DNA of 64,000 bases from NCBI RefSeq assembly GCF_900187405.1, contig NZ_LT896716.1:1364001-1428000 (forward strand), read 5' to 3'. Origin of the DNA: Geobacter sp. DSM 9736. GTDB taxonomy: Bacteria > Desulfobacterota > Desulfuromonadia > Geobacterales > Geobacteraceae. The position numbers and the translations under genes were made by a program. Each line of letters begins with the position of its first letter. Position 1 is the first letter of the stretch. The notes under the pieces were generated by a model that saw nothing but the letters and a program-made list of their open reading frames with translations, did no database searches and was not told the origin of the DNA. Below, in pieces: positions 27,512 to 34,173 of this stretch.

Positions 27512-28531
27512 TCAATACACTCCCAATGTGAAAGCGGCCCACCAGGACAAGACAACTACCGCGGCGCTGGCCGACGCAAGCAGAACACTGACCAGTTGCC
27601 CCGGCCGGCCATACCTTACGATCAGAAATTCCGCTGCCAACCCGAAGCCGATACCGAAGAAAAACCCGAAAAAATGCGCCCCGAGGTCGGTGTTCCGCCC
27701 CTCGGTTCCCAGCAGGACCAGGAGCGCCAGCGCAGCCGCCACCGGCAGAGGCCAGCGGCGGTGCAGATGGTGCCGGTAGCGGACCAGGCTGATCGAGGCG
27801 AATATCCCGACGGCGGCGAATACGGCGGTGGAGGCGCCAACGGAATCGTGGCTCGGAAGTTGAACATGGGCATTCAGCCAGTTTCCTGAAGCTCCTGCTG
27901 CGAGGAGCAGGCTCCAGGAGAGGCCTGAGCCGAGTTCACGGCAGAGGCAGACGAGAAAGAAACCGCCGATGGTGAGATTGCCGATCAGATGCACCAGGTC
28001 GGCGTGCAGCGTGAGCGCGGTCACGAGCCGCCACCATTCGCCGTCAAGGATCAGGTTGGCCCTTGCGCTGCCGAGTTCGGTCCAGTTCGGGGCCGAGTGT
28101 CCATCCGGCAAGTTGCCGAGCTGCGTCACATTGAAAAAGGTGGCCAGCAGGATCAATACGGAGAGGGTTGCCAGCGTGTTCTCCACGAGCGGACGGGGGG
28201 CAGGTGGAGGCGGCGGCCAGTCCCGGTTCTCTTCCTCAAAAAGGCGCAACTGCTCCGCTGCCTCGTCATAGGCCCCGGCAGGCACCAGCAACCGCCACCC
28301 GCCAATCCCCATTTCGACATGGCTCGGGAGAGCACGAGCCGCCAGCACCAACGCCCAGAGATTCGCCTGCCGCTCGCTAAGGGTGCCCGCTCCTGCGTCA
28401 CCGATACGTCCGGGGCGGATCTCCAGCCATTGCTCTTCATAACTGCCGCTGAGCGCGTCTTGTTCCATGACGATACTATAAGCATCATCATCCCCAATTA
28501 CCACCTTTGGGGTTGTTGAAAAAACATTCAT
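27512..28531 (-). CDS. Rhomboid family intramembrane serine protease
   Basis: About 339 residues. The soluble N-terminal region (about 130 residues) is followed by a Pro-rich linker and six or more membrane segments. The catalytic dyad is visible: Ser in GASTAVFAAVG and His in DLGAHFFGFFFG; the conserved LTLHADLVHLIGN loop is also present. It should cleave membrane proteins within the bilayer. The best start (GAGG site, ATG at 28531) lies inside a copy of the hairpin repeat family, whose GAGATG supplies the start codon. An alternative start is the Met at 28468. Confidence 0.88.
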   Translation of the reverse strand: MNVFSTTPKVVIGDDDAYSIVMEQDALSGSYEEQWLEIRPGRIGDAGAGTLSERQANLWALVLAARALPSHVEMGIGGWRLLVPAGAYDEAAEQLRLFEEENRDWPPPPPAPRPLVENTLATLSVLILLATFFNVTQLGNLPDGHSAPNWTELGSARANLILDGEWWRLVTALTLHADLVHLIGNLTIGGFFLVCLCRELGSGLSWSLLLAAGASGNWLNAHVQLPSHDSVGASTAVFAAVGIFASISLVRYRHHLHRRWPLPVAAALALLVLLGTEGRNTDLGAHFFGFFFGIGFGLAAEFLIVRYGRPGQLVSVLLASASAAVVVLSWWAAFTLGVY

Positions 28532-28648
28532 CTCGCCGCCCTCCTCGAAAGCCACCGTGTGCGGCGTCGCGCTGTTTATGCCCCAGAGGGTACTACACCT
28601 CCTTGGGGCTTTCTGCGGGTGCGACGATCTGACTATTTTTGAACAACC
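28511..28648 (-). repeat. Hairpin repeat, copy 12 (upstream of rhomboid gene)
   Basis: On the minus strand it runs from GGTTGTTCAAAAATA to TTTTTTCAACAACC with pairing arms. It is closely related to the copy before folD (shared GTCGCACC, GCAGAAAGCCCC, GGCTTTCGAGGAGG and GCGAGATG blocks). Its centre is longer and more degenerate than in other copies. The GAGATG end faces and overlaps the rhomboid gene start. Confidence 0.75.
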
Positions 28649-28737
28649 AAATTTTTTCAATAACGTGATTTAAGTATCAAGACGGCGCAGATGAACTTAC
28701 CGCAGAGGTAAAAAGAGAGAAAACCAAAGAGAAAAAC

Positions 28738-28771
28738 AAAAAGGACACCACCGAAGGGAAGTGTCCTTTTT
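28738..28771. terminator. Terminator at the end of the nif operon
   Basis: An 11-bp perfect stem AAAAAGGACAC/GTGTCCTTTTT (28738-28748 with 28761-28771), with T-rich flanks in both directions. It lies 140 bp past the nifK stop, after one hairpin repeat. Confidence 0.8.
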
Positions 28772-28786
28772 GTTTAAAACCGAGTG

Positions 28787-28909
28787 CGAGCGAGATTTTT
28801 CCGTCAGGTTTATGCCGGCGGGAGCGGGCCCCGCGGAGGCGTAGCAGCGCTACGCCGCACAAGAGGGCCCGCGCCCGCCGGTATGAAGATGGCGTAAAAG
28901 GCTCGCTCG
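28787..28909 (-). repeat. Hairpin repeat, copy 1 (just after nifK stop)
   Basis: A 123-nt near-continuous hairpin. Outer arms of about 45 nt pair (CGAGCGAG with CTCGCTCG; CCGGCGGG...GCGGGCCC with its complement), with many differences being transitions that allow G-U pairs. The core is the palindrome GCGTAGCAGCGCTACGC (28839-28855). It begins 2 bp after the nifK stop codon. Confidence 0.88.
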
Positions 28910-28911
28910 GA

Positions 28912-33444: not shown

Positions 33445-33489
33445 CGGGGCAACAAAAAAGGCGCCCCATTTGTTAAATGGCGGGCGCCT
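33445..33489 (-). terminator. Intrinsic terminator in the nifH leader
   Basis: On the minus strand, AAAGGCGCCCGCCATTT pairs with AAATGGGGCGCCTTT (33486 to 33451) and is followed by a T6 run. It lies between the putative sigma-54 promoter and nifH, so transcription of nifHDK must read through it. An ANTAR antitermination regulator is encoded just upstream. Confidence 0.85.
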
Positions 33490-33511
33490 TTGCCGAACTT
33501 CAATCAATAGT

Positions 33512-33530
33512 GAATACGTCGGCGTATTCG
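33512..33530 (-). other. Small hairpin in nifH leader, possible ANTAR target
   Basis: GAATACGCCGACGTATTC forms a stem of six or seven pairs with a GC-rich loop, 25 nt before the terminator stem. ANTAR proteins bind paired hairpins with six-base loops bearing A1 and G4. This loop does not show that signature, so the assignment is speculative. Confidence 0.3.
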
Positions 33531-33555
33531 AGTTGGTTTGTTTTGTCTGGGTTAG

Positions 33556-33571
33556 AGCATCGAGTGTGCCA
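33556..33571 (-). promoter_or_regulatory. Putative sigma-54 promoter of nifHDK
   Basis: On the minus strand TGGCACACTCGATGCT matches the -24/-12 consensus TGGCAC-N5-TTGC in 9 of 10 fixed positions, with exactly 10 bases between GG and GC. Initiation would be near 33545, giving a leader of about 247 nt before nifH. Confidence 0.75.
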
Positions 33572-33668
33572 ATACGGAAACTGCTGGATTTTCAAGCATT
33601 CAACTTCTGCATCCGTATCCAGCCAGCCTACCGACGGTGCATGTGCTATGTTTTTAGGCAAAACCGAC

Positions 33669-34173
33669 TGGCGAATGATTTCAAGGTCAGGTCGGTGGCT
33701 TCCAAGGAAGAGCGCGGAGGCGTGGCAGCGCCACGCTGCACAAGCGATGACGAAGGAAACACCGAGATGGCCCGAAAGCGTTCGCCACAAACCGAATGGC
33801 GAATGATTTCGAGGTCAGGTCTTGGCTTCCAAGGAAGAGCGCGGAGGCGTGGTAGCACCACGCTGCACAAGCGATGACGAAGGAAACGCCGTGATGGCCC
33901 GAAAGCGTTCGCCACAAACCGAATGGCGAATGATTTCGAGGTCAGGTCTTGGCTTCCAAGGAAGAGCGCGGAGGCGTAGCGGGAGCTACATCGCACAAGC
34001 GATGAAGAAGGCAACGTCAAGATGGCCCGAAAGCATTCGCTACAAAACACCGTGACGAACGATTTCGAGGTCAGGTCGGTGTGGAGCTAGGCAAGCCGCG
34101 GAGGCGTAGCAGCGCTACGCCGCACAAGAGCGAGCCGAAGCCCCGCGCCGAGATGGCCCGAAAGCGTTCGTCA
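33669..34173 (+). repeat. Tandem array of four hairpin repeats (copies 7-10) after the ANTAR gene
   Basis: Four units of 118-121 nt at 33669-33787, 33797-33914, 33924-34042 and 34053-34173, with about 9-bp CAAAACCGAA-like spacers (period 127-129 bp). The core stem varies with compensation: GCGTGGC/GCCACGC, GCGTGGT/ACCACGC, GCGTAGC/GCTACAT and GCGTAGC/GCTACGC. The last unit ends exactly on the ANTAR gene stop codon. The 872-bp nifH-ANTAR spacer holds this array, the nif promoter and leader, and no convincing gene. Confidence 0.9.

Follow-up and report, generated by a model that had tools for sequence, protein, structure and literature searches.

Why is each of the three nitrogenase structural genes at this locus of Geobacter sp. 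DSM 9736 held between two hairpins of nearly constant length, and do these hairpins belong to the nif operon at all? The window, a stretch of 64,000 nucleotides, was searched with a covariance model (R1) trained on 7 of its copies, matches being counted at E ≤ 1. The 19 matches comprise 12 copies, 6 antisense echoes of those copies and 1 doubtful short match (21434-21502); the preliminary description had also counted 12 copies. We call the 3′ end of the folding strand (GAGATGGC type) e3 and the opposite end e5. The copies and the genes beside them are:

28510-28648, minus strand: long-tip copy, 139 nt, at the beginning of a rhomboid-family gene (Pfam Rhomboid); R1 29.3 bits, fold z −4.4 for 28510-28652
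28786-28911, plus strand: antisense copy directly next to the nifK stop codon; R1 98.1 bits, fold z −9.1
28912-30381, minus strand: nifK (NCBIfam TIGR01286, 659 bits)
30397-30518, minus strand: copy ending 15 nt upstream of the nifK start, sense to nifK; R1 49.8 bits, fold z −6.2
30580-30701, plus strand: copy 8 nt past the nifD stop, antisense to nifD; R1 106.8 bits, fold z −7.0
30710-32149, minus strand: nifD (NCBIfam TIGR01282, 785 bits)
32165-32285, minus strand: divergent copy ending 15 nt upstream of the nifD start, sense to nifD; R1 28.9 bits, fold z −3.1
32307-32428, plus strand: antisense copy directly next to the nifH stop; R1 116.4 bits, fold z −5.0
32429-33298, minus strand: nifH (NCBIfam TIGR01287, 474 bits)
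33312-33432, minus strand: copy ending 13 nt upstream of the nifH start, sense to nifH; R1 46.5 bits, fold z −6.8
33669-33788, plus strand: tandem copy T1; R1 119.7 bits, fold z −5.3
33797-33915, plus strand: tandem copy T2; R1 106.9 bits
33924-34043, plus strand: tandem copy T3; R1 93.2 bits
34053-34174, plus strand: tandem copy T4, which overlaps the ANTAR response-regulator gene at its stop codon; R1 133.9 bits, fold z −8.8
34171-34737, minus strand: response regulator with an ANTAR RNA-binding domain (PF00072 and PF03861)
43002-43122, plus strand: subfamily A copy ending 12 nt upstream of the folD start at 43135 (FolD-type families by NCBIfam); R1 38 bits

Around each of nifH, nifD and nifK, one copy lies 0-8 nt past the stop codon and another ends 13-15 nt upstream of the start, and all six nif copies turn the same type of end, e3, towards the gene, just as first described. 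The proposed end-to-end folding around a GCGTAGC-AGC-GCTACGC core also held: the eight copies folded (the six at nif, T1 and T4) gave z scores of −3.1 to −9.1 relative to dinucleotide shuffles, the weakest fold, upstream of nifD, being equalled by 2/200 shuffles. Length had been put at 119-123 nt, which is near the window range of 119-126 nt and misses the 139-nt long-tip form, whose e3 arm extends into the possible start-codon region of the rhomboid-family gene.

The hairpins are not a nif device, because the genome holds at least 125 copies of them (best 150 of 753 first-look candidates scored). The nif bracket is a genome-wide placement rule acting on three adjacent genes. The set of 125 consists of 129 matches minus 1 antisense echo and 3 partial matches; six further places with the core only were left out of the placement statistics. 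The core itself, allowing up to 2 mismatches, gives 97 matches at 94 places in this genome and none for the reversed control. We detected the family in 43 of the 58 Geobacter-group genomes searched (best 61-150 candidates per genome scored), where copy numbers are lower bounds and a genome with no match may still carry copies. Most elements are 114-143 nt long, with a few shorter or longer, and several subfamilies in the window genome look similar by eye between unrelated loci. The stem covaries strongly: 87.6% of pair cells are paired compared with 68.7% after shuffling, and two-sided changes number 582 compared with 174.

A scan of Geobacter-group genomes with a covariance model had been proposed with the preliminary description, and it shows that placement and orientation relative to genes are non-random. 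We defined a stop class (e3 within −6 to +10 nt of a stop codon) and a start class (e3 8-20 nt before a start). In the window genome (G000), 69/125 copies fall in the stop class against 10.0 by chance, and 21/125 in the start class against 6.8. A second genome, G014, which is a single contig, places 50/62 copies in the stop class (10.4 by chance) and 7/62 in the start class, no excess over the 9.6 expected by chance, with e5 in the start position 4 times. (For G014, 72 rows minus 1 antisense echo left 71 copies, of which the 62 in 40 of 47 stretches were analysed.) Among 80 copies from other assemblies, e3 lies at a stop 57 times and at a start 9 times, and e5 at a stop 2 times and at a start 5 times; this set derives from 90 of 95 rows, 5 being cut off, partial or antisense, minus 10 from AOG1, which is G014. 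The e5 end abuts a stop in just 1/125 copies in G000 and 0/62 in G014, and where copies share a gap their e3 ends point outward 15 and 2 times and inward 0 and 0 times. Unrelated perfect-stem hairpins, used as a control, lie 0-10 nt from a facing stop in only 7/57 and 3/29 cases; folding the 110 nt downstream of stops was uninformative as a control, since 212/212 and 110/112 such segments fold from their first bases. Outside both classes lie 25/125 G000 copies, some of them reflecting gene-calling errors, as at 43002-43122.

These counts show that e3 mostly sits right at a stop codon, with the folding strand antisense to that gene, a polarity that is new here. They also show a second class, with e3 just upstream of the Shine-Dalgarno sequence and the folding strand in the sense orientation, in the window genome and not clearly elsewhere. 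The rule is unusually sharp: one defined end falls within about ten bases of a stop at well over one hundred loci in many genomes. A targeting enzyme, the exposure of untranslated DNA or RNA, and strict selection are candidate causes; we know of no established cause of such stop-codon placement for REP-like repeats in general.

The suggestion of a MITE-like element inserting at gene borders therefore fares well for the placement, which extends genome-wide and to other species and is clearest at stops, and less well for a plain MITE, as evidence of target-site duplication is lacking or small. Direct repeats of ≥5 nt flank 2/62 copies in G014 against 2.3 by re-pairing, that is, none in excess; in G000 they flank 8/124 against 5.0 (≥6 nt, 6 against 1.6), and tandem copies may contribute to this. 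No polymorphic empty site was captured.

Could the hairpins instead have been shaped by the mRNA in which they lie? The strand test separates mRNA-shaped hairpins from hairpins shaped in the opposite strand. In three sets of stop-type copies the element strand is the better folder in 68/74, 50/51 and 27/27 cases, and among start-type copies in 22/23, 7/7 and 7/7. (From one listing, 34/57 rows were used, after removal of 17 antisense echoes and of 6 matches that were weak, long or could not be placed; 1 of those used is also a G014 copy.) When orientation was defined by sequence alone, a test that left out 66 copies with no orientation motif, the element strand folds better in 72/77 stop-type and 15/16 start-type copies, and for the outer arms only in 74/77 stop-type copies. 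The wobbles agree at the outer pairs, with 91 G-U against 15 A-C on the element (antisense) strand of stop-type copies, and just 11 against 6 in start-type copies; the inner pairs of G014 stop-type copies give 55 A-C against 29 G-U, but the alignment is poor there. Copies are not independent tests of this preference, because it is partly inherited within the family. The fold is thus shown to have taken shape on a single, constant strand, a feature new here; in the stop-type copies, which are the majority, this strand is antisense to the mRNA, and it follows that protection of host mRNA did not shape the fold.

This result bears directly on the proposal that the hairpins stabilise or process each nif cistron and set H:D:K ratios. 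Such a post-transcriptional device would have a 3′ hairpin past the stop, a 5′ hairpin before the Shine-Dalgarno sequence and a cut in the AU-rich linker between them, and the paired gaps are indeed laid out gene-hairpin-AT-rich linker-hairpin-gene. Copies also flank nifHDK in 18/53 loci of relatives (G044, whose nifD match lies where a contig ends, was left out). Among H-D and D-K gaps that lack the family, 41/75 have a strong fold in the mRNA strand, a larger share than the 56/261 of control gaps; such family-free gaps, as we report here for the first time, often contain unrelated strong hairpins. However, the mRNA strand is the worse folder in nearly all stop-type copies, it is on the antisense strand that their outer-pair wobbles read as G-U, the placement rule is genome-wide, and 34/75 family-free nif gaps have no strong fold. 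We regard this device as rather unlikely. It leaves the fold unexplained; a role of the elements in nif mRNA, as a later use, is possible. The nifV riboswitch candidate WRC-61-5, which is located directly upstream of nifV, gained no support as a family member: 12 nifV loci, none of them recognised as one of the four published representatives, carry no copy immediately in front of the nifV match, and the closest one on the upstream side, in G020, is ∼320 nt away.

A hairpin directly after a stop also invites reading the elements as intrinsic or bidirectional terminators that mark gene ends. Read from the gene, a run of at least 4 T within 32 nt beyond the hairpin accompanies 25/69 stop-type copies in G000, compared with 366/2509 in the background, but it is equally frequent at G000 start-type copies (10/21), where it would be useless to the gene, and in G014 neither class departs from background, with 8/50 stop-type and 0/7 start-type copies against 134/838. 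Given this inconsistency between the two genomes, and with copies also between nif genes where the antisense strand folds better, the terminator reading is weak and we consider it very improbable.

Strong covariation and the G-U bias of the outer pairs would both fit a family of small or cis-acting RNAs transcribed along the element strand, and a 2009 catalogue did call such sequences predicted short RNA elements. Yet the 20 nt upstream of e5 are almost unconserved (≤0.19 bits per position in G000, ≤0.18 in G014), with no visible promoter, and Rfam covariance models run over 28000-35000 at E up to 1 matched no element. An RNA family seems to us quite improbable. The sole Rfam row in that interval is P11 on the nifH leader, under its gathering score.

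How, then, did copies at different sites come to resemble one another? At the nif sites of 18 genomes (25 of 31 rows, 6 K-3′ and T4 rows excluded), the 9-bp outer stem is position-specific and the inner hairpin is common to positions and species. Outer-stem identity is 0.76 at the same position and 0.455 at other positions, with the nearest neighbour at the same position in 24/25 cases; for the inner part the values are 0.73 and 0.70, and 16/25. The H-D copy of G018 and the D-K copy of G055, for example, have inner parts that are 97% identical and outer stems that are 39% identical. The comparison shows that in nif operons the inner hairpin has apparently been exchanged while the outer stem stays position-specific, which is new here, and this modularity may preserve the history of such exchanges among hairpins at scattered sites. 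A derivation of the outer arms from the target site is ruled out for two subfamilies, A and B, because their arms are alike at unrelated loci.

Our preferred reading, which in our view stands about an even chance, is a REP-like hairpin element that is strand-specific and dispersed in genomes of the Geobacter group, presumably moved by a mobiliser and later homogenised by conversion; our confidence fell slightly on checking the start side, where e3 shows no excess in G014 and in other assemblies is found 9 times against 5 for e5. By analogy with REP-type palindromes, the element would spread by copying through a folded single-stranded form, and stop-proximal sequence may tolerate or attract the e3 junction. 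Resident copies might swap interiors by gene conversion, with the conserved core as guide, the local outer stem presumably remaining paired meanwhile, and an effect on nif expression, if any, would be a secondary use. This reading does not account for the excess of TAG at abutted stops (38/69 against 121/451), a preference presumably reminiscent of RelE A-site cleavage. We also offer, as a tentative and on balance unlikely generalisation, a class of genome hairpin whose polarity would be set by translation: e3 would be anchored at the border of the sequence that ribosomes cover (stops above all, in some genomes also the Shine-Dalgarno sequence), whichever strand is transcribed, and a locus-resident outer stem with an exchangeable inner hairpin, kept on the non-coding strand, would serve as an interchangeable spacer in nif operons.

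Mobilisation as a classical REP/REPIN family by a RAYT (Y1 HUH transposase) would explain the high copy number, the strand-specific imperfect palindrome, the inverted pairs and the location beside 3′ ends of ORFs with TAG stops at the junction. However, a search with PF01797 (Y1_Tnp) in 58 genomes gave no match in the single contig of G014 or in G039, G051 and G057, which carry from 26 to at least 61 copies, and gave matches in 14 of the 15 genomes with no detected copy (best 61-150 candidates scored). R1 found a copy within up to 1.5 kb of 0/34 Y1 loci examined, more Y1 matches existing, and the subfamilies that we saw share no tag tetranucleotide. With units typically of 115-142 nt compared with 20-40 bp for REPs, RAYT mobilisation is distinctly improbable, and we rejected the RAYT/IS200 link. 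Viral or plasmid carriage was likewise rejected, viral contigs giving no exact core match and plasmids no blastn match for one consensus. Among the matches listed, contigs labelled 'Nitrospirae GWC2_56_14' bear subfamily A; one tested protein has its best match within the order in G000, at 80% identity, which makes misbinning likelier than spread across phyla.

The preliminary description knew of no published account of the arrangement, but comparison with known systems places the elements in a family already on record. The family itself was listed in 2009, for G. metallireducens, under the name '24 predicted short RNA elements', intergenic and multicopy, with the central palindrome GRCGTAGCGCTGCTACGCC, and similar sequences were reported in G. 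sulfurreducens, G. uraniireducens and Desulfotalea psychrophila (PMC2700814). That palindrome matches the core here, and the two are very probably the same family; the part of the 2009 account drawn on here describes no nif bracket, end-to-gene polarity, folding strand, covariation or inner and outer modules. Our literature search likewise found no description of the nif bracket, the polarity and placement rule, the folding strand or exchangeable inner parts. REPs of the GTAG and CGTC superfamilies, in the portions of the study consulted, are 20-40 bp long with a terminal tag and occur as dimers; like them, the elements are palindromic and dispersed, often lie ≤20 bp from ORF 3′ ends, form opposite-orientation pairs and often supply TAG stops, but they differ in unit length, in strict e3-to-stop polarity, in the absence of any RAYT link found and in the position-specific outer stems of nif copies (PMC3733652). 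The MRSC-65-2 motif, often in dozens of copies per genome, was deemed in 2024 to be more like a selfish element, possibly acting as DNA; it shares the single long covarying stem and the many copies, whereas we noted no counterpart of its conserved UYCCGG repeat in the Geobacter element and the sections consulted mention no gene-end polarity for it (PMC11109978). Within the same group, most multicopy sequences of G. bemidjiensis are, according to the authors' account as far as consulted, without equivalents in either G. sulfurreducens or G. metallireducens; they too are palindromic intergenic repeats, and their insertion was judged non-random (PMC2996986).

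The covariance model places 12 copies of the hairpin element in the window. The two ends of the element differ: e3 carries GAGATGGC or a relative, e5 is the opposite end, and the fold-bearing strand has e3 as its 3' end. In stop-type copies e3 lies at a stop codon, with the element strand antisense to the gene; in start-type copies it lies upstream of a start codon, with the element strand in the sense direction. As the preliminary description had it, the minus-strand genes nifH, nifD and nifK (identified by NCBIfam) each have a plus-strand copy after the stop and a minus-strand copy before the start, with e3 toward the gene. 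The eight window copies that we folded gave z from -3.1 to -9.1. Further placements in the window are:

Four tandem copies, 3' of the stop of an ANTAR response regulator
28510-28648, minus strand: long-form copy at the beginning of a rhomboid-family gene
Single copy, 12 nt upstream of folD

Judged from the 28510-28648 copy and from long forms in the window's genome and in a second, single-contig genome (G014), the element tip is modular: it can be GTAGCAGCGCTAC, GTACTGGAAGTAC or a longer GTAGTACCC...GGGCATAAACAGCGCTAC, and a few copies have a much longer tip (e.g., G014 position 506106, window's genome position 386672).

The nif bracket is a local form of a general rule. In the window's genome (3.96 Mb), the conserved central palindrome (core) matched 97 times at 94 places with at most two mismatches, the reversed pattern never, and at least 129 covariance matches were found at E up to 0.1, with 150 of 753 first-look candidates scored. 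Genes were called with a home-made codon model (coding fraction 0.83; some genes and starts missed), and expected numbers assume uniform placement and orientation within the same gaps. On these calls, e3 lies within -6 to +10 nt of a stop in 69 of 125 full copies (expected 10.0) and 8-20 nt upstream of a start in 21 (expected 6.8), while 9 copies face another copy, 1 lies within a gene and 25 lie elsewhere; e5 is at a stop once and never in the 8-20 nt start position. We examined 62 of the 71 copies found in G014: e3 is at a stop in 50 (expected 10.4) and e5 in none, 7 copies precede starts, not more than the 9.6 expected, 5 lie elsewhere, and e5 takes the 8-20 nt start position four times. 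A third set, 80 further copies from ∼30 named assemblies (some being genomes already used), gives 57 copies with e3 at a stop, 9 with e3 before a start and 14 of neither kind; e5 takes the stop position twice and the start position five times. For comparison, perfect-stem hairpins of other kinds, taken from gaps free of the element, come within 10 nt of the facing stop in 7/57 and 3/29 cases. The random placement and orientation that the preliminary description had named as contrary to it are not what these counts at stops show. Copies in a common gap are arranged e3-outward 15 times in the window's genome and twice in G014, never e3-inward, and include nine tandem pairs. The stop polarity thus holds in every set, and the start-side class is clear in the window's genome only; together with the e3-outward gap sharing, this polarity makes the nif bracket a local case. 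The family is real, and the genome-wide e3-to-gene rule that the bracket reflects is strongest at stop codons. A scan of 58 genomes of the order, the window's own among them, found copies in 43; weak copies can be missed there.

A separate observation concerns the codon itself: TAG is about twice as common at e3-abutted stops as at other genes (38/69 vs 121/451, p = 5e-6, in the window's genome; 24/50 vs 53/216, p = 0.0017, in G014).

The hairpin family is very probably not new. The 2009 G. metallireducens genome paper (PMC2700814) catalogues 24 "predicted short RNA elements" whose central palindrome is identical to the element's, and names similar sequences in G. sulfurreducens, G. uraniireducens and Desulfotalea psychrophila; the earlier statement that no published description was known therefore fails for the family itself. 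Rfam gave no match to the elements, nor did a literature text search for the core in alternative spellings. Neither the nif bracket nor the polarity rule turned up in the literature searched, including the available parts of PMC2996986, PMC3543383 and PMC545781.

We fetched nifHDK from 52 of 53 relatives with a nifD match (53 loci), the preliminary description having proposed a check for relatives whose nif loci lack the elements: copies flank the genes in 18 loci. There, 29 of 30 stop-type copies begin at offsets of -4 to +7 nt relative to the stop codon (one is 165 nt off), and 7 of 8 start-type copies end 12-20 nt before the start (one at 51 nt). The nifH stop is the element's own terminal TGA in three loci (L077, L101, L129). 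When 25 stop-type copies from the nifH-nifD and nifD-nifK gaps of 18 genomes are compared, outer 9-bp stems resemble those in the same gap of other genomes (identity 0.76) more than those in the other gap (0.455; 0/2000 permutations), and 24/25 have their nearest neighbour in the same gap. The inner hairpin is weakly position-specific (0.73 vs 0.70; 31/2000 permutations; 16/25); in one pair (G018 nifH-nifD, G055 nifD-nifK) the inner parts are 97% identical and the outer stems 39%. The simplest reading of these sequences is that the interior would be converted around the conserved core while the outer stem stays in place.

The fold belongs to one fixed strand. In 80 copies from relatives' nif loci and G014, pairing holds in 87.6% of pair cells vs 68.7% when shuffled, and two-sided changes occupy 582 cells vs 174; these figures benefit from an alignment fitted to the model. 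When both strands of each copy were folded, the strand ending in e3 was the more stable in 68/74 (window's genome), 50/51 (G014) and 27/27 (relatives' nif) stop-type copies and in 22/23, 7/7 and 7/7 start-type copies, by a mean of ∼11-16 kcal/mol, counts that overstate independence since the copies share ancestry. Orienting by sequence motif alone favours the element strand in 72/77 stop-type and 15/16 start-type copies, and the outer arms alone do so in 74/77 stop-type copies. Outer pairs include 91 G-U vs 15 A-C in stop-type copies and only 11 vs 6 in start-type copies; inner pairs of G014 stop-type copies, a poorly aligned region, show the reverse trend (29 vs 55). The better-folding strand of stop-type copies is antisense to the gene, so that the mRNA carries the poorer hairpin; it is therefore unlikely that the family owes its shape to selection acting on hairpins in the host's mRNA. 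Candidates for what shaped it are a DNA form that is single-stranded and a transcript of the opposite strand.

The earlier idea of mRNA protection or processing is thus unlikely as the origin of the fold and survives as a doubtful role within nif. Its best remaining support comes from family-free nif gaps, which have fold z below -2.5 in 41/75 cases vs 56/261 codirectional family-free control gaps (p = 9e-8). These sites often carry unrelated palindromes shortly 3' of the stop, and 35 of the 75 gaps match a fetched stretch outside nif; a palindrome hot spot would give the same picture. Repeat types seen in this slot in the relatives include CCCCCCT..GGGGGG, GTAGGGGCG..CGCCCCTAC and CACCACGGAGACACGGAG. 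Many of the relatives inspected also have a short GGGAC-GGATGA-GTCCC-type hairpin directly 5' of the nifK Shine-Dalgarno, before the ATG (e.g., L077, L079, L093, L110), whose stem differences from species to species look compensatory; none was seen before nifK in the window's genome.

The nifH leader (33433-33668, minus strand) adjoins the ANTAR response regulator gene and contains TTGGCACACTCGATGC, which we take to be a sigma-54-like motif, and, at about 33453-33490 (minus strand), a hairpin that resembles a terminator and has a T run. This combination suggests that the leader may be under antitermination control. A weak Rfam P11 match, under the gathering score, lies at 33460-33583.

How did the copies reach gene ends? 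Movement by Y1/RAYT, the transposase tied to REP palindromes, was rejected: it has no match in four copy-rich genomes (G014, G039, G051, G057), is matched in 14 of 15 genomes where no copy was detected, and at the 34 Y1 loci examined no copy lies in the sequence covered (up to 1.5 kb). The proposed gene-border insertion stands as regards placement at gene ends, strongest at stops. Target-site duplication, as expected of a MITE, is absent from G014 and shows a small excess in the window's genome (direct repeats ≥6 nt, 6 vs 1.6). Sequence flanking the element is hardly conserved in the family as a whole, with a GTTGAAAAAC stretch often beyond e5 in one sequence subfamily (A). Viral contigs have no exact core match and plasmids no match to the element. 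T runs beyond the hairpin exceed background in the window's genome only, there in start-type copies too. The family also appears on contigs labelled Nitrospirae GWC2_56_14 (L211, L220, L249, L261); the bin probably contains Geobacterales contigs, because a single tested protein (on L249) shares 80% identity with its match in the window's genome.

The likeliest reading, to which we give about even chances, is a REP-like, strand-specific hairpin element with a putative mobiliser and later conversion. That the hairpins are a new class whose polarity is set by translation, with e3 docked at the edge of ribosome-covered sequence, seems improbable. Both estimates were slightly higher until the start side proved weaker on recheck. 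The element's placement has precedent in REPs of other bacteria, which, according to PMC3733652, sit no more than 20 bp from the 3' ends of ORFs and often supply TAG stops; stops abutted by the element are TAG-rich too, with the TAG mostly outside it, and the element differs from REPs in its sharp polarity, unit size and modules.
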